From NCBI GenBank assembly GCA_001803565.1, contig MHDQ01000079.1, positions 1 to 7,444 on the forward strand: DNA of 7,444 bases. Reading direction: 5' to 3'. Shown here in pieces: positions 270 to 7,444 of the stretch. This DNA comes from Nitrospinae bacterium RIFCSPLOWO2_12_FULL_45_22 (GTDB taxonomy: Bacteria; 2-12-FULL-45-22). How positions within the stretch are numbered: position 1 is the first letter of the stretch; every line of letters starts with the position of its first letter. The translations under genes and the position numbers were made by a program. The notes beneath the pieces were generated by a model, which saw only the letters and a program-made list of their open reading frames with translations, was not told the origin of the DNA and made no database searches.

Positions 270-2543
270 ATGAAAAAATATTCCGTAGTCGGCCAACGTG
301 TACCGCGAATCGATGGGGTAGCTAAGGCGACAGGAGAGGCCAAGTTTACTGGAGACCTGGTACTGCCCCGGATGTTATATGCGAGGGCTTTAAGGAGCCC
401 CCTCCCGCATGCCAAAATCCTTCATATATATACTACCAAGGCTGAAAGACTTATTGGGGTGAAAGCTGTTATTACAGGCAAGGATACAGCCGACATTCAA
501 ATGAGTCGGTTATTTTGTCCTATCAAAGATGAACCCCTTTTAGCAGTGGATAGAGTCCGTTATATTGGGGATGAGGTAGCGGCTGTAGCTGCTGTGGACG
601 AGGATATTGCCAGGGAAGCATTGGACCTAATCGAGGTGGAATATGAGCCATTACCTGCTATTTTTGATCTGGAAGAGGCCATGGCCCAAGATGCTCCGAT
701 CATTCACGAGCATGCTAAGAATAATATTGCCTACCAAATATCTATGAATTTCGGTGATATAGAGCAAGGGTTTAAAGAATCCGATTATATTCACGAGGAT
801 CAATATACTACTGCATGCTATACCAATTGTTGGATAGAGACTGACACATGCCTGGCCCATTTTGATTCTTCCGAGAAACTAACCTTATGGACCCCTACCC
901 AGTCTCCTTATATCCTCAGGAGTGAAGTAGCCAGCACCCTGGGCCTGGGAGAAGGTAGAGTAAGGGTCATTGCACCTTATACAGGGGGAGGTTTTGGTGG
1001 TCGAGTAGGAATTCAACCTCATCATTGCCTGGCTGCCCTTCTATCGCGCAGGACAGGACAACCGGTAATGCTAAAGTTGGGTCAGGAAGAAATCTTCAAC
1101 ATGGGTAATTCTATGATCATCCAAATGAAAACCGGCGTAAAAAGAGATGGAACTTTAGTTGCCAGAACCCTTAAAGTTATAGCTGACTCTGGCGGATATT
1201 TAGGTATTGGAGGGGTTGACCTGCTTATTTCGGGACTATTTAATACGGTGCCTTATAAACTTTCAGCCTTTCGGTTTGAAGGCCTCATGGTCTATACCAA
1301 TAACCCTGTAAGGGGATTTGTCTCTGGCGAAGGGATTCTGGCCACAAATTATGCCACCAGCACCCAATTAGATATAATAGCAGAGAATTTAGGGATCGAT
1401 CCAGTAGACATCTGCTTGAAGAATGCTGTCCAACCAGGTTATACCACAGTCAATAAGTTCAAGATTGGTAGCTGCGGTCTTACCGAATGTATACAAAAAG
1501 TAACAGAAAATGCCCATTGGAATGGCAAACGGGGAAATCTCAGAAAAGTGCATAGCGGCTTTGGAATAGGTTGCGGCTCAGTCTGTTCAGGAGCGAAAGG
1601 AATTCTAGCCCATGATATCTCGGCAGCAATAGTTAAAGTGCAGGAGGATGGCTCGGTTATCATATTGACAGGGCTGCCGGATATAGGCCAGGGGTCCCTA
1701 ACCATGTTGGCCCAGATCGCCGCTGAGGAGCTGGGTGTACCAATGGAAAAGGTCATAGTCCATTCAGCCGATACCGAAACAACTCCTATAGATGTTGGTG
1801 CCCTTGGCCAGCGGGGTACGTTCATTACCGGAAATGCTGTAAGAACGGCCATTAGAGAGGTTAAGGGACAGCTTTTAGAAGTAGCTGCGTCCTGCATGAA
1901 TGTTAATATTGAAGGGTTAGAGATACAAGGAGGTAGGATATTTTCTAGGGAGAATCCTGAGAAAGGCATGTCGGTAGCAGAGGGTGTACAGGTAAGCCAA
2001 AGATCCAGCAAAGGGCAGCCTATTATGGCTAAAGGGGTCTATAATCCGGCTAGTGAGCCTACGGATCCTACAACTTTTGAGGGTAATCTGGCCATGGCTT
2101 ATTCCTTTGGCGCACAAGTGGCGGAAGTAGCCATTGACCCGGAAACTGGAAAGGCAAAACTAAAGAAGATGACGGCTGCCCATGATGTAGGTTTTGCTAT
2201 AAATCCTAATGCCGTTGAAGGGGAAATCCATGGCCAGATATGGAGCGGAAGAGATATGACATTGTTCCAAGAAAGGATCTTGGAGCAAGGGCAAACCTTA
2301 AATCCCTCTTTTTTGGATTATAAATTCTCTACCGCTATGGATACTCCGGAGGTCGAGACCATTATCGTGGAAACTAACGACCCCCATGGCCCTTTTGGTG
2401 CTAAGGAGGTAGGGAGAGGGCCCTTTATGTCGGTCGCCCAGGCTATAGGTAATGCCATTTATGACGCTACAGGGGTGAGGATCAAAAGCTTCCCCATTAC
2501 TCCTGAGAAGATCCTCCAGGCCTTAGAAGAAAAGACTCCTTGA
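270..2543 (+). CDS. Molybdopterin-binding large subunit, xanthine dehydrogenase / 4-hydroxybenzoyl-CoA reductase alpha family (copy A)
   Basis: The 757-residue cytoplasmic protein has the length and layout of HcrA/CoxL-type large subunits. An N-terminal a/b-hammerhead domain spans about 15-130 (TGEAKFTGDL, LRSPLPHAKI, YIGDEVAAVAA). The molybdopterin domains span about 135-750 and include GGGFGGR at 239-245, VRGF at 347-350 (R348 matches the substrate-site Arg of xanthine dehydrogenase), SCGLTEC at 401-407, GLPDIGQG at 468-475 and HDVGFAINP at 638-646. No signal peptide is visible. Two cofactor-pocket changes stand out: the catalytic-Glu motif GAKxxGE reads GAKEVGR (710-716, R716), and the usual EGQ is EGE (E652). 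Family members normally hydroxylate, or in HcrA reductively dehydroxylate, a substrate using separate [2Fe-2S] and FAD subunits, none of which is visible here. The ATG is supported by the MKxYSVVG start shared with copy B; the ribosome site (GGGGG, 259-263) is weak. The substrate is unknown, and calling it xanthine dehydrogenase would be unjustified. Confidence 0.93.
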   Translation: MKKYSVVGQRVPRIDGVAKATGEAKFTGDLVLPRMLYARALRSPLPHAKILHIYTTKAERLIGVKAVITGKDTADIQMSRLFCPIKDEPLLAVDRVRYIGDEVAAVAAVDEDIAREALDLIEVEYEPLPAIFDLEEAMAQDAPIIHEHAKNNIAYQISMNFGDIEQGFKESDYIHEDQYTTACYTNCWIETDTCLAHFDSSEKLTLWTPTQSPYILRSEVASTLGLGEGRVRVIAPYTGGGFGGRVGIQPHHCLAALLSRRTGQPVMLKLGQEEIFNMGNSMIIQMKTGVKRDGTLVARTLKVIADSGGYLGIGGVDLLISGLFNTVPYKLSAFRFEGLMVYTNNPVRGFVSGEGILATNYATSTQLDIIAENLGIDPVDICLKNAVQPGYTTVNKFKIGSCGLTECIQKVTENAHWNGKRGNLRKVHSGFGIGCGSVCSGAKGILAHDISAAIVKVQEDGSVIILTGLPDIGQGSLTMLAQIAAEELGVPMEKVIVHSADTETTPIDVGALGQRGTFITGNAVRTAIREVKGQLLEVAASCMNVNIEGLEIQGGRIFSRENPEKGMSVAEGVQVSQRSSKGQPIMAKGVYNPASEPTDPTTFEGNLAMAYSFGAQVAEVAIDPETGKAKLKKMTAAHDVGFAINPNAVEGEIHGQIWSGRDMTLFQERILEQGQTLNPSFLDYKFSTAMDTPEVETIIVETNDPHGPFGAKEVGRGPFMSVAQAIGNAIYDATGVRIKSFPITPEKILQALEEKTP

Positions 2544-2639: not shown

Positions 2640-2710
2640 TAAATCTTTATCTGGAATTATTCATTAACATTTGCTCTGGATTTAGGTTTAAATAAATAAG
2701 GAGGTAAGAT

Positions 2711-4624
2711 ATGGAAGCTAGATATTATGCTGGGAAGCTTCTTTGGGTAGACTTATCTTCAGGTAAGATAAGGGAAACACCAACTAGCGACTACGGTGAC
2801 TTTGTAGGCGGGATCGGCATTGCCGCTAAAATATATTGGGATGAAGTCCCCACCGAAGTTAAGGCTTTATACCCTGAGAATAAGTTAATATTCATTACCG
2901 GCCCCCTGAGCGGGTTTTCTGGATTTGCCAGCTCCCGCTGGAAGATAGCGGCCAAATCCCCTATAGCTAATCCCGAGCATTTCTCTTATGCTAACCTGGG
3001 TGGAAGCTGGGGGGTTGCCCTTAAGCTGGCCGGTTACGATGGTTTAGTGGTGGAAGGAAAGGCAGAGAAGCCCGTTTATCTGCTGGTAGAGGAGGACAGG
3101 ACCAGGATAATGGATGCTACTCATCTCTGGGGCAGGGGGGCAATAGAAGTCCGAGATATCCTTAAGGCCGAATGGGAGGATTCAGTCAATGTATTAGCCA
3201 TCGGTCCGGCGGGCGAAAACATGGCGGTGATGGCAACTGTCCTGGCTAACCAGGATGCCAGTGGCCGTGCTGGTTTTGGAGCGGTGATGGGTTCTAAGAA
3301 ACTTAAGGCCATTGTTGTGCGAAGAGGGAGTCAGAAATTTTCTCCGGCATACCCAGAAAGGCTTAAAGAGCTATTGTGGCATTTCCGCTGGCTAGTGGGA
3401 GAAGGCAAGCTTGCTTTCTACCATCAGATGGTAAAAACAACAAAGGAACGACCGACTCGTAAAGACTACTGCTGGGGTTGTGCCGGCCCCTGCATACGAG
3501 AATCCTACAAGGCTCAGGACGGCAAAGAAGGTAAGTTCATGTGTTCATCGGCCCTTTTCTATCGCAGATGGGCCTGGCCCTATTATAATAACGATGATGA
3601 AGAGATCCCCTTCAAGGTAACCAAGCTCTGTGACGATCTGGGATTGGATACCATGCATTTTGAGGTCATCATAAAATGGCTTGATCGCTGCTACCAGGCA
3701 GGGCTCTTGACGGAGGAAGAAACCGGCATCCCCTTTTCTAGAATAGGTAGCTGGGAATTCGCTGACGCTTTACTCAGAGAAATAGCTTATGGAGAGGGCA
3801 TCGGTAAATTCCTGCGCTTGGGGGTGGAAAAGGCAGCCGAGCTTATCGGTAAGGGGACAGGAGAAATAATTTCTGATCTACTTCATAAATCGGGATTCGA
3901 TATATATAGTCCCCGGATACATATTGCGAATGGGATTATATATGCTATGGAGGCCACACAACGGCTGGACCAATTACATGAAATATCTATACTTATTGAG
4001 CAATGGCGGCAATGGGTCCATGGCAGTGAAGGGGCTTTCGTCTCCAGTGATGTAGTTCGGTCCGTTGCCAAAAGGTTCTGGGGCAGTGAAGCAGCGGCCG
4101 ATTTTACGTCCTATGAAGGGAAAGCCCTGGCAGCAAAGATGATCCAGGAGCGCGAATATGCTAAGAATTGCTTGATCCTCTGTGATTGGGTATGGCCGTT
4201 GATGACATCGCCTAACACGGCTGATCATGTAGGAGACCCAACCCTGGAGAGCAAGATCTTCTCTGCCATTACTGGACAGGAAATGGATGAGGATGGGTTT
4301 TCCCGGCTGGGAGAAAAGATCTTCCATCTCCAGCGGGCTATTATGATAAGGGAGGGACACAGGGGGAGACAGGATGACTGCCTGCCAGAGTTTTGCTACA
4401 CTACTCCCTTGTCGGAACAGGTTGTTAACCCTGAAATGATAGTGCCAGGGAAGGATGGGGAGCCAGTCTGTCGGAAGGGTTCTGTAGTGGACAGAAAATC
4501 CTTTGAAAAAATGAAGGATGAATACTACCAGCTTCGGGGATGGGATATTAAGACAGGATTACCTACTATTCAACGGCCCAAAGAGTTGGGGCTGGACTTC
4601 ACGAGGAATATTTTCACAGCATAG
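2711..4624 (+). CDS. AOR-family tungsten oxidoreductase, BamB-like
   Basis: The 637-residue protein has the full AOR architecture. The N-terminal pterin domain (about 5-210) carries VGGIGIAAK (32-40), SR (75-76), NLGGSWG (95-101), IGPAGEN (164-170) and GRAGFGAVMGSKKLKAI (185-201). The [4Fe-4S] ligands are CWGCAGPC (C254, C257, C261) plus C491 in NCLILCDW. LGLDT (310-314) is a second pterin motif, and RGWDIKTGLPT (609-619) is the family's C-terminal signature. In Pyrococcus AOR an active-site Glu (E313) lies 25 residues after the first cluster Cys; here the residue 24 positions on is C278 (KFMCSS), as in BamB of class II benzoyl-CoA reductase, where a Cys at this spot ligates tungsten. H423 may match the AOR active-site His. 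Such enzymes carry tungsten-bis-pterin and exchange electrons with ferredoxin; the substrate here is unknown. The start is clear: AAGGAGGT at 2698-2705, five bases before ATG. The downstream large subunit starts 13 bases after the stop. Confidence 0.93.
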   Translation: MEARYYAGKLLWVDLSSGKIRETPTSDYGDFVGGIGIAAKIYWDEVPTEVKALYPENKLIFITGPLSGFSGFASSRWKIAAKSPIANPEHFSYANLGGSWGVALKLAGYDGLVVEGKAEKPVYLLVEEDRTRIMDATHLWGRGAIEVRDILKAEWEDSVNVLAIGPAGENMAVMATVLANQDASGRAGFGAVMGSKKLKAIVVRRGSQKFSPAYPERLKELLWHFRWLVGEGKLAFYHQMVKTTKERPTRKDYCWGCAGPCIRESYKAQDGKEGKFMCSSALFYRRWAWPYYNNDDEEIPFKVTKLCDDLGLDTMHFEVIIKWLDRCYQAGLLTEEETGIPFSRIGSWEFADALLREIAYGEGIGKFLRLGVEKAAELIGKGTGEIISDLLHKSGFDIYSPRIHIANGIIYAMEATQRLDQLHEISILIEQWRQWVHGSEGAFVSSDVVRSVAKRFWGSEAAADFTSYEGKALAAKMIQEREYAKNCLILCDWVWPLMTSPNTADHVGDPTLESKIFSAITGQEMDEDGFSRLGEKIFHLQRAIMIREGHRGRQDDCLPEFCYTTPLSEQVVNPEMIVPGKDGEPVCRKGSVVDRKSFEKMKDEYYQLRGWDIKTGLPTIQRPKELGLDFTRNIFTA

Positions 4625-4630
4625 GAGGGT
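4623..4630 (+). promoter_or_regulatory. Ribosome binding site fixing the GTG start of copy B
   Basis: AGGAGGGT overlaps the TAG stop of the AOR gene (4622-4624) and lies 7-8 bases before GTG at 4638. It decides between this start and the in-frame ATG at 4518, which is buried in the AOR reading frame. The overlap suggests translational coupling between the two genes. Confidence 0.85.
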
Positions 4631-4637
4631 AAAGAGG

Positions 4638-6875
4638 GTGAAGGGATATTCAGTGGTGGGGAAACCTACTCCCCGGATTGATGGGGTGGCTAAGGTTACC
4701 GGCGAGGCCAGGTTTACAGGAGACCTGGTATTACCCCGGGTATTATATGCAAAAATCTTAAGAAGTCCTTATCCGCATGCCAATATCCTTAATATAGACA
4801 CCACCAGGGCAGAGAGACTTAAGGGGGTAAAAGCCATTATTACCGGGAAGGATGTAATAGGCATTCAGTTGAATCGGTTGTACTCTCCCATTAAGGATGA
4901 ACCCATTTTGGCAGGGGATAAAGTGCGCTACATTGGAGATGAGGTAGCAGTGGTTGCGGCGGAGGATGAAGATGTGGCCAGGGAAGCTTTGGAGCTAATC
5001 AGTGTAGAGTATGAACTATTGCCTGCTATCCTTAATGTTGAGGAAGCTATGGTTGCGGGCGCTCCTATCATCCACGGACATGCTAATAACAATATTGCTT
5101 ACCAAATCTCGGCAAATTTTGGTGATCTGGAGCAGGGTTTTAAAGAGTCTGAGTATATCCGCGAGGATACTTATACCACCGCATATTATACCAATTGTAG
5201 CATAGAAACCGATGTGTGTCTGGCCCAATTTGATTCTTCTGGGAAACTCACCTTATGGACTCCTACCCAGTCCACTTATATAATCCAGAAAGACATAGCT
5301 AACACTCTGGGACTGGCAGAAGGTAAAGTAAGGGTCATTGCACCCCATATAGGAGGAAGTTTTGGTAGTCGATTGTCAGGCGAGCCCCATCATTGTCTGG
5401 CCGCTCTCCTGGCACAAAAGACCGGACGGCCAGTAATGCTAAAGTTGGACCTGGAAGAAATCCTTAACCGGGGTAATTCTATGATTATACAATTAAAAAC
5501 CGGGGTAAAAAAGGATGGGACCTTATTATCCCGAAAACTCAAAGTTATAGCTGATGCTGGTGGGTATTTAGGTCTTACAGGTTTAGACGTTCAGATCGCC
5601 GGGCTACGTAATATGTTGCCTTACAAACTCGCAGCCTTTCAGTTTGAAGGTCTAGCGGTCTATACCAATAATCCTGTGAGGGGATTTTTATCCGGGGAAG
5701 GGATTCGAGTGGCAAATTTCGCCTCCAGCATCCAATTGGACCAAATAGCAGAAGATTTAGGGATTGATCCATTGGATATATGCTTAAAAAATGCCATCCA
5801 ACCAGGTTATATTATGGCTAATAAGATAAAGATCGGTAGCTGTGGCCTTACAGAATGTATCCAAAAAGTAGTCGAAAAGGCCGGTTGGGATGGAAAGCGG
5901 GGTAGACTCAGAAGGGAGCATCGTGGTTTTGGCATAGGCTGTGGCTCAGCCTCTTCTGGTGGCAAAGGAGTTTTGACCCACAGTATCTCTGCCGCTACAG
6001 TTAAGCTTCAGGAGGATGGGTCGGTGGTATTATTGACCGGGCTGCCTGATATGGGTCAGGGTGCCCATACTATACTGGCCCAGATTGCCGCTGAAGTCCT
6101 GGGCCTACCATTAGAGAAGATATTAATATATTCAGCGGATACCGAGCTATCTCCTGTAGATTTAGGTGCCCTGGGCCAGAGGGGTACCTACATAACAGGA
6201 AATGCGGTAAAGTCCGCCGCAGAAGAGGCCAGAAGACAGCTCTTGGAAGTTGCGGCAGAAAGCATGGATGCCAATATTGAGGATTTAGAGATTCAAGGGG
6301 GCAGAATCTTCATTAAAAATAACCCGGAAAAGGAGATGCCAGTCTCAGGAGTCGTTCAGACCAGCCAGAGGTCTGAGAGAGGGCAGCCTATTATGGGTAA
6401 AGGCTTTTATAATCCGAATAGCGAGCCGCCAGATCATATAACTTTTTCTTTTGACGCCCAAGTGGCAGAAATAGAACTAGACCCGGAAACAGGAAAGATA
6501 AAGCTAAAAAAGGTCAATGTCGCCCATGATGTAGGCTTTGCTATAAATCCCCTGGCGGTTGAAGGACAGATCCACAGCCAGGTGTGGAGTGGGGGAGATA
6601 TGACACTGTTCCAGGAAAGGATATTAAAAGAAGGCCAGAATCTAAATCCCTCTTTCCTGGATTACAAATTCTCTACCGCTATGGACGCGCCAGAGATAGA
6701 GACTACTATAGTAGAGACTATCGAGCCTTATGGTCCCTTTGGGGCTAAAGAGGTAGGGAGGGGGCCAATAATGTCAATCGGCCAGGCCATAGTTAATGCC
6801 GTTTATGATGCTACAGGAGTTAGGATCAAAAGCTTCCCTATTACCCCAGAAAAGATCCACTCAACTTTCACATAG
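4638..6875 (+). CDS. Molybdopterin-binding large subunit, xanthine dehydrogenase / 4-hydroxybenzoyl-CoA reductase alpha family (copy B)
   Basis: From the GTG at 4638 this is a 745-residue paralogue of copy A. It aligns from the first residue (M-K-G-YSVVG) with 542 of 740 positions identical. It lacks eight residues found in copy A (A residues 604-611) and four at the C-terminus, with no other net gap. Family motifs are GGSFGSR (239-245), VRGF (347-350), SCGLTEC (401-407), GLPDMGQGAHT (468-478) and AINPLAVEGQ (635-644). It shares R708 in GAKEVGRGP, where relatives have the catalytic Glu, but keeps the usual Gln (Q644) that copy A has as Glu, and its FGG loop is FGS. An ATG at 4518 is in frame and would add 40 residues, but these match no family sequence and lie wholly in the AOR gene. 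It is probably co-transcribed with the AOR gene, and no signal peptide is visible. The substrate is unknown. Confidence 0.93.
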   Translation: MKGYSVVGKPTPRIDGVAKVTGEARFTGDLVLPRVLYAKILRSPYPHANILNIDTTRAERLKGVKAIITGKDVIGIQLNRLYSPIKDEPILAGDKVRYIGDEVAVVAAEDEDVAREALELISVEYELLPAILNVEEAMVAGAPIIHGHANNNIAYQISANFGDLEQGFKESEYIREDTYTTAYYTNCSIETDVCLAQFDSSGKLTLWTPTQSTYIIQKDIANTLGLAEGKVRVIAPHIGGSFGSRLSGEPHHCLAALLAQKTGRPVMLKLDLEEILNRGNSMIIQLKTGVKKDGTLLSRKLKVIADAGGYLGLTGLDVQIAGLRNMLPYKLAAFQFEGLAVYTNNPVRGFLSGEGIRVANFASSIQLDQIAEDLGIDPLDICLKNAIQPGYIMANKIKIGSCGLTECIQKVVEKAGWDGKRGRLRREHRGFGIGCGSASSGGKGVLTHSISAATVKLQEDGSVVLLTGLPDMGQGAHTILAQIAAEVLGLPLEKILIYSADTELSPVDLGALGQRGTYITGNAVKSAAEEARRQLLEVAAESMDANIEDLEIQGGRIFIKNNPEKEMPVSGVVQTSQRSERGQPIMGKGFYNPNSEPPDHITFSFDAQVAEIELDPETGKIKLKKVNVAHDVGFAINPLAVEGQIHSQVWSGGDMTLFQERILKEGQNLNPSFLDYKFSTAMDAPEIETTIVETIEPYGPFGAKEVGRGPIMSIGQAIVNAVYDATGVRIKSFPITPEKIHSTFT

Positions 6876-7014: not shown

Positions 7015-7444
7015 ATGAGGGAATATGCTGTTATCGGCAAGAGATTACCTAGAGTGGATGCCGTCCCTATGGCTACTGGGACGGCACAGTACACGGGTGA
7101 TGTAGCTCTAGCGGGGATGCTCCACGGCAAGCTCTTGAGGAGCCCTTACCCGCACGCTAAGATTCTCAATATAGATACCTCACGGGCTGAGCGATTGCCC
7201 GGGGTGAAAGGAATAATCACCGGGCGAGACCCCAATAATAAGAAATGGGGTTTTATAGACGATCCCACTCAACTCGATGAATATCCCCTGGCCTTTGATA
7301 AGGTTCTCTACGTTGGAGATGAAATAGCAGCCGTAGCGGCTACAGATGAGGATATCGCCTTAGAGGCCATAGACCTTATCCGGGTGGAGTATGAAGAGCT
7401 ACCCGCTATCTTCGATATAGAAGAGGCGATGAAGCCTGATACTC
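7015..7444 (+). CDS. Molybdopterin-binding large subunit, N-terminal part (copy C, cut by window edge)
   Basis: The ATG at 7015 follows AAGGAGGT (7001-7008) by six bases and opens 143 codons that run off the window. The translation begins MREYAVIGKRLPRVDA and follows the a/b-hammerhead domain of copies A and B throughout: ATGTAQYTGD (20-29), LLRSPYPHAKILNIDTSRAE (40-59), YVGDEIAAVAA (99-109) and LPAIFDIEEAM (129-139). It is clearly more distant from A and B than they are from each other. It has a one-residue insertion around residues 72-95, where GFIDDPTQLDEYPLAFDKV replaces the A/B sequence. The molybdopterin domain, and so the catalytic-Glu position, lies outside the window. It may be the large subunit of a complete three-subunit hydroxylase if small subunits follow downstream. 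Confidence 0.9.
   Translation, partial: MREYAVIGKRLPRVDAVPMATGTAQYTGDVALAGMLHGKLLRSPYPHAKILNIDTSRAERLPGVKGIITGRDPNNKKWGFIDDPTQLDEYPLAFDKVLYVGDEIAAVAATDEDIALEAIDLIRVEYEELPAIFDIEEAMKPDT

Follow-up and report, generated by a model that had tools for sequence, protein, structure and literature searches.

The locus and its protein

The window, by which we mean the whole 7,444-nucleotide stretch analysed, contains a gene for a 637-amino-acid protein of the AOR/WOR family, accompanied by genes for large subunits of the xanthine oxidase family resembling the alpha subunit of 4-hydroxybenzoyl-CoA reductase (HBCR) (Table 1). The scores of the protein exceeded the curated Pfam cut-offs for both AOR-family domains (PF02730, 215 bits with a cut-off of 29.8; PF01314, 182 bits with a cut-off of 27), and the match to PF01314 starts at position 62 of the 385 positions of the profile. 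The alignment placed C254, C257, C261 and C491 as the four cysteines for a single [4Fe-4S] cluster. On the basis of these domains and of a complete AOR fold, described below, the protein is a member of the AOR/WOR superfamily.

Table 1. Features of the window around the Cys-type AOR/WOR-family gene
Feature	Position	Strand	Remark
Upstream xanthine-oxidase-family large subunit, HBCR alpha-like	270..2543	+	Arg716 replaces catalytic Glu
Ribosome-binding site of the Cys-type AOR CDS, AAGGAGGT	2698..2705	+	Sequence reading
Cys-type AOR/WOR-family CDS	2711..4624	+	637 aa; ATG start; TAG at 4622-4624
AFOR_N, pterin-binding, residues 8-204	2732..3322	+	Pfam PF02730, E 1.1e-63
Shortened domain-2 linker, residues 205-253	3323..3469	+	Lacks the stretch of AOR Thr243 and of the BamB Zn/proton-relay residues
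AFOR_C, domains 2 and 3, residues 246-628	3446..4594	+	Pfam PF01314, E 2.6e-53
C254-x2-C257-x3-C261, three [4Fe-4S] ligands	3470..3493	+	C254 (3470-3472) and C257 invariant; C261 nearly so
C278, putative W/Mo protein ligand	3542..3544	+	Equivalent of BamB Cys322 and YdhV Cys336; PMC12096430
Y284, alignment column of PfAOR Glu313	3560..3562	+	Tyr: 53/54 family members and BamB; Glu: 47/52 AORs
Y399, PfAOR Tyr427 equivalent	3905..3907	+	Tyr in 51/54 family members
H423, PfAOR His448 equivalent	3977..3979	+	His in 52/54; next residue Glu (E424) in 48/54
C491, fourth [4Fe-4S] ligand	4181..4183	+	Invariant in the family and AORs
Downstream paralogue, same xanthine-oxidase kind	4638..6875	+	Also Arg for Glu
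Third xanthine-oxidase-family copy	7015..7443	+	Cut by the contig end

The mechanically defined ORF of the downstream paralogue begins at position 4518, but the probable start codon is the GTG at position 4638, only 13 nt after the stop codon of the AOR gene, which suggests that these two genes are on one transcript; an AGGAGGG sequence lies at 4623-4629. Both complete neighbours have an Arg (KEVGRGP; 2415-2417 and 6759-6761) where HBCR has Glu726 (KEASEG), a residue that we take to be the catalytic base of the xanthine oxidase family. The Glu is retained in four other copies of the large subunit in the genome. Whatever activity the Arg-bearing neighbours may have, it should be unlike that of the normal members of their family.

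Phylogenetic placement of the family

A profile constructed from four members identified about 50 relatives in genome contigs, mostly displaying 37-53% identity over their full length, after which identity dropped to about 31%. The hosts are mostly Dehalococcoidia or other Chloroflexota and Deltaproteobacteria-type bacteria, together with two Actinomycetota and two Spirochaetota. No relatives were found in viral contigs, and the literature searched yielded nothing on the family in Dehalococcoidia. The spacing of the Fe-S motif is variable in some members, with a CxxCxxC motif or a longer loop (L062, L072, L094 11444-13411, L045, L054 and L068).

Phylogenetic trees were inferred without the region extending from just after the CxxCxxxC motif to beyond the Cys at position 278. 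In the tree based on 47 rows, the family formed one clade (100/99), which was joined by archaeal Cys-type proteins (95/80) and then by YdhV and a Peptococcaceae protein (100/99), and the AORs lay on one side of a branch (99/94). A 115-row tree was concordant, both for the family clade and for its grouping with YdhV. The sequence-only reading had pointed away from aldehyde oxidation, and placement of the family among the aldehyde-oxidising AORs was rejected (AU p 6.6e-6), as was a group uniting the family with BamB (AU p 0.009). The protein thus belongs to a lineage of its own, separate and widespread, with YdhV as its nearest characterised relative; this lineage may already figure among the 92 WOR clades in the literature. 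The suggestion that the N-terminal domain is more like that of BamB than that of AORs was not borne out, as the highest phmmer score was obtained with FOR (155.9 bits), followed by two AORs (144.2), BamB (143.8) and PfAOR (140.6).

C278 and the Glu313 column

The numbering of the reference proteins was checked on alignments derived from the PDB for BamB (residues 12-653) and PfAOR (residues 6-603), and on the E. coli K-12 genome for YdhV, and the positions checked were C299 and C322 in BamB, C288 and E313 in PfAOR, and C336 in YdhV. In the translated ORF, C278 lies exactly 24 residues beyond C254 of the CxxCxxxC motif (3470-3544), as first read from the sequence, and the spacings then given for BamB (C299-C322, 23 residues) and PfAOR (C288-E313, 25 residues) are those of the PDB-derived sequences. 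C278, BamB C322 and YdhV C336 occupied a single column of the MAFFT alignment, and C278 was also aligned with BamB C322 in the phmmer pairwise alignment with 4z3w. This Cys was invariant in the 45 aligned relatives and in all 54 of the longer family rows, and none of the 52 AOR-type proteins of the comparison set had a Cys in this column. The relatives were retrieved with peptide patterns located elsewhere in the protein, away from C278, and the conservation of this residue is therefore not a selection effect.

According to a 2025 review (PMC12096430), the Cys of BamB and YdhV is a metal ligand, conserved in these two enzymes and absent from all other members of the superfamily. We strongly infer that C278 ligates W or Mo, because the two enzymes of the broader Cys group that have been studied are both reported to have this ligand (PMC12096430). 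The cysteine had initially been described as a BamB-type residue in place of the active-site glutamate, a description that is correct in part. C278 does correspond to Cys322 of BamB, but the Glu313 column is occupied by Tyr284, with the Cys six residues upstream, in the same loop. In the alignment, it is therefore Tyr284 rather than the Cys that replaces Glu313, although the side chains could still share a similar space. Likewise, the term "BamB-type" is appropriate for the ligand but not for descent, given the rejection of a common group with BamB and the status of YdhV as the nearest characterised Cys-type protein.

The rest of the active site and the predicted fold

The segment that separates the pterin domain from the Fe-S cysteines (counted from residue 200) comprises 46-68 residues in the family, 86-129 in AORs, 99 in BamB and 108 in YdhV. 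The missing stretch contains Thr243 in AOR, and the Zn/proton-relay residues Glu251, His255, Glu257 and His260 in BamB (roles according to PMC12096430). Three of the corresponding four BamB columns were empty in all 54 family members, and the fourth contained unrelated residues. The columns of PfAOR Tyr427 and His448, filled by Y399 and H423 in this protein, contain Lys and Glu in BamB, and Trp and His in YdhV. Two of the four residues of the proposed AOR mechanism, the equivalents of T243 and E313, have thus been lost, and the family combines half of the AOR second shell with a Cys of the metal-ligand type. No characterised enzyme is described in the review (PMC12096430) as having the Cys and the Tyr427/His448 equivalents without the Thr243 stretch.

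An AlphaFold2 model generated with 40 family sequences had a mean pLDDT of 90.5 and a pTM of 0.93, with local pLDDT values of about 80 around C278 and as low as 55-59 in the shortened linker. The match to solved structures of the AOR family extended over the entire model, with VIA Z scores of 33.6-39.1 for seven members, the best matches being 9mqx (Z 39.1, rmsd 2.5, 561 residues) and 1aor (Z 39.0, rmsd 2.4, 557 residues); the match to BamB (4z3w) had a Z score of 36.1 (rmsd 2.9, 571 residues). Fold similarity, as judged from this model, does not discriminate between AOR and BamB. Parts of the model also matched ubiquitin-like and other folds with Z scores below 4, and these matches were treated as noise.

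These data bear on the possibility that the protein is an aldehyde oxidoreductase in which the Cys is incidental or structural, with His423 and Tyr399 performing the acid/base work. PfAOR (1aor, aldehyde:ferredoxin oxidoreductase) resembles the family in its whole fold, which is matched as well as that of BamB, its Fe-S ligands, and the conserved Tyr427 and His448 positions. However, it differs in having Thr243 and Glu313, both lost from the family, in lacking the Cys that the family has gained, and in belonging to a separate clade. Given the invariance of this Cys and the rejection of a grouping with AORs, we consider such an enzyme improbable, and the protein probably does not oxidise aldehydes.

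Gene neighbourhood and host genome

No partner gene was conserved across about 50 loci of the family, with neither a ferredoxin-type nor a membrane subunit recurring beside the family gene. Xanthine-oxidase-type genes were not found beside other family members, their cluster being confined to the window. A short-chain dehydrogenase gene adjoined the family gene at seven loci, lying no more than 100 bp away on the same strand at four of them. Of the 51 family genes with both flanks available, 20 lacked any neighbour on their strand within 150 bp. As this dehydrogenase is the only recurrent neighbour and so many of the genes have no close one on the same strand, gene context provides no pathway. 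Three flanking genes, tentatively located at L094 10031-10603, L094 13424-13975 and L076 2173-3141, matched ferredoxin-dependent bilin reductase (PF05996). On a Deltaproteobacteria contig (L063 7995-14048), a family member is directly followed by two BamB-like genes, one scoring 893.9 bits against 4z3w; the Zn/proton-relay motif of BamB is present in a BamB-like gene of this locus. WorS and other Wor subunits were absent from the window, which lies on a short contig.

The host genome contains four other AOR-family genes, one of which, on contig 52, belongs to a further Cys-type lineage. It also has a TupABC-like locus, recognised by a TTTS motif and likely to be involved in tungstate uptake. 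No tungstate-specific WtpA was found in the genome.

The absence of conserved partners is relevant to the hypothesis of a YdhV-like respiratory-type molybdoenzyme with other or missing partner subunits. YdhV (E. coli; WOR clade 41, class V), from the closest characterised clade, has the same AOR-family domains and the Cys at the metal-ligand position (Cys336), and it resembles the 637-amino-acid protein in the residues that follow the fourth Fe-S Cys (LCDWVWPLMTSP and LCNWVWPMTVSP). Nevertheless, the protein scored only 296.7 bits against the YdhV equivalog of NCBIfam (NF007354), the cut-off for which is 868, the linker of the family is about half as long as the 108-residue linker of YdhV, and YdhV has a Trp in the Tyr427 column. 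Moreover, YdhV is accompanied by YdhY and membrane subunits (PMC13328260), whereas no such neighbours are conserved beside the family. This hypothesis seems to us no more probable than that of an aldehyde oxidoreductase.

The least probable of the functions considered is that of a variant of BamB (4z3w, class II benzoyl-CoA reductase) dearomatising benzoyl-CoA or a near analogue: the same Cys, the Tyr in the Glu313 column, the AOR fold, the BamB-like genes at locus L063 and the HBCR-like genes on both sides in the window are in its favour, but BamB has the Zn/proton-relay stretch that is missing here, lacks the His and Tyr of the family and belongs to another clade, no bamC-I genes adjoin the AOR gene in the window (the contig of which ends at position 7444), and the search of the genome (85% complete) for BamA, the hydrolase that cleaves the ring, gave only relatives of the enoyl-CoA hydratase type scoring under the cut-off.

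Proposed function

The explanation that we favour, with a probability of roughly 0.6, is that the gene encodes the catalytic subunit of a bis-pyranopterin enzyme with Cys-ligated W or Mo, from a lineage of its own, carrying out the low-potential outer-sphere reduction of a non-aldehyde substrate. It is preferred because of the invariance and alignment of C278, the AOR fold, the placement outside AORs and in a clade with YdhV and the archaeal and Peptococcaceae Cys-type proteins, the missing counterparts of T243 and E313, the TupABC-like locus and the lack of aldehyde oxidation by CsWOR41, a relative of YdhV that oxidised none of 46 aldehydes (PMC13328260). Several points count against it. H423 and Y399 are retained, unlike in BamB, so that acid/base chemistry of the AOR type may persist in part; no conserved neighbours pointing to a reductive pathway were found at the family loci; and the model has a pLDDT of only about 80 around C278. 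Both metals are possible: the TupABC-like locus is probably for tungstate uptake, yet YdhV prefers Mo and CsWOR41 takes mainly W (PMC13328260).

In such an enzyme, C278 would be the fifth sulfur ligand of the W or Mo atom and, as in BamB, this ligation would block the inner-sphere route that AORs may use for the oxidation of aldehydes. The likeliest source of electrons would be a soluble ferredoxin, as no dedicated electron-transfer subunit is conserved beside the gene, and their point of entry the lone [4Fe-4S] cluster. The metal would then presumably pass them, by low-potential outer-sphere transfer, to a substrate sitting over it, acting as a donor of electrons and protons in the way proposed for BamB; H423 and Y399 are the candidates for the proton donors. 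Our guess for the substrate is an unsaturated compound in activated form, for instance a CoA thioester; it would not be benzoyl-CoA handled in the manner of BamB, given that the stretch with the Zn/proton-relay residues is missing.

We tentatively suggest, as a possibility that we would rate somewhat below even odds, that these proteins constitute a third functional class of Cys-ligated W enzymes: single-subunit, ferredoxin-driven reductases combining the metal site of BamB and YdhV with the His and Tyr of AORs, occurring in uncultured Dehalococcoidia, Deltaproteobacteria-type bacteria and others, and sometimes present as several paralogues per genome. Compared with the 1-MDa Bam complex, a soluble member with one subunit would offer a simpler system for testing the chemistry of Cys-ligated W or Mo. 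The name given to such proteins by general domain models, aldehyde ferredoxin oxidoreductase, is probably misleading for the metabolic reconstruction of uncultured sediment bacteria.

Together with three further lineages (archaeal, Peptococcaceae and a "KCSPY" group), the family indicates that Cys-type enzymes are more widespread than stated in the review (PMC12096430), and that the gain of the Cys and the loss of the AOR second shell are separable events. The archaeal (Nitrososphaerota) and Peptococcaceae AOR-family proteins (L096 8001-9965, L097 8001-9965 and L100 3125-5212) have a Cys at the place of C278, in the sequences GQAQCVQLQMY and AVSCTQWFY, and group with YdhV and the C278 family. 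The third lineage is characterised by a KCSPYxDLTWDL motif (L044 8365-9645, on contig 52 of the window's own genome; L112 2-1840; L114 1780-3783), and its hosts are the bacterium from which the window originates, Nitrospinota and Dehalococcoidaceae.
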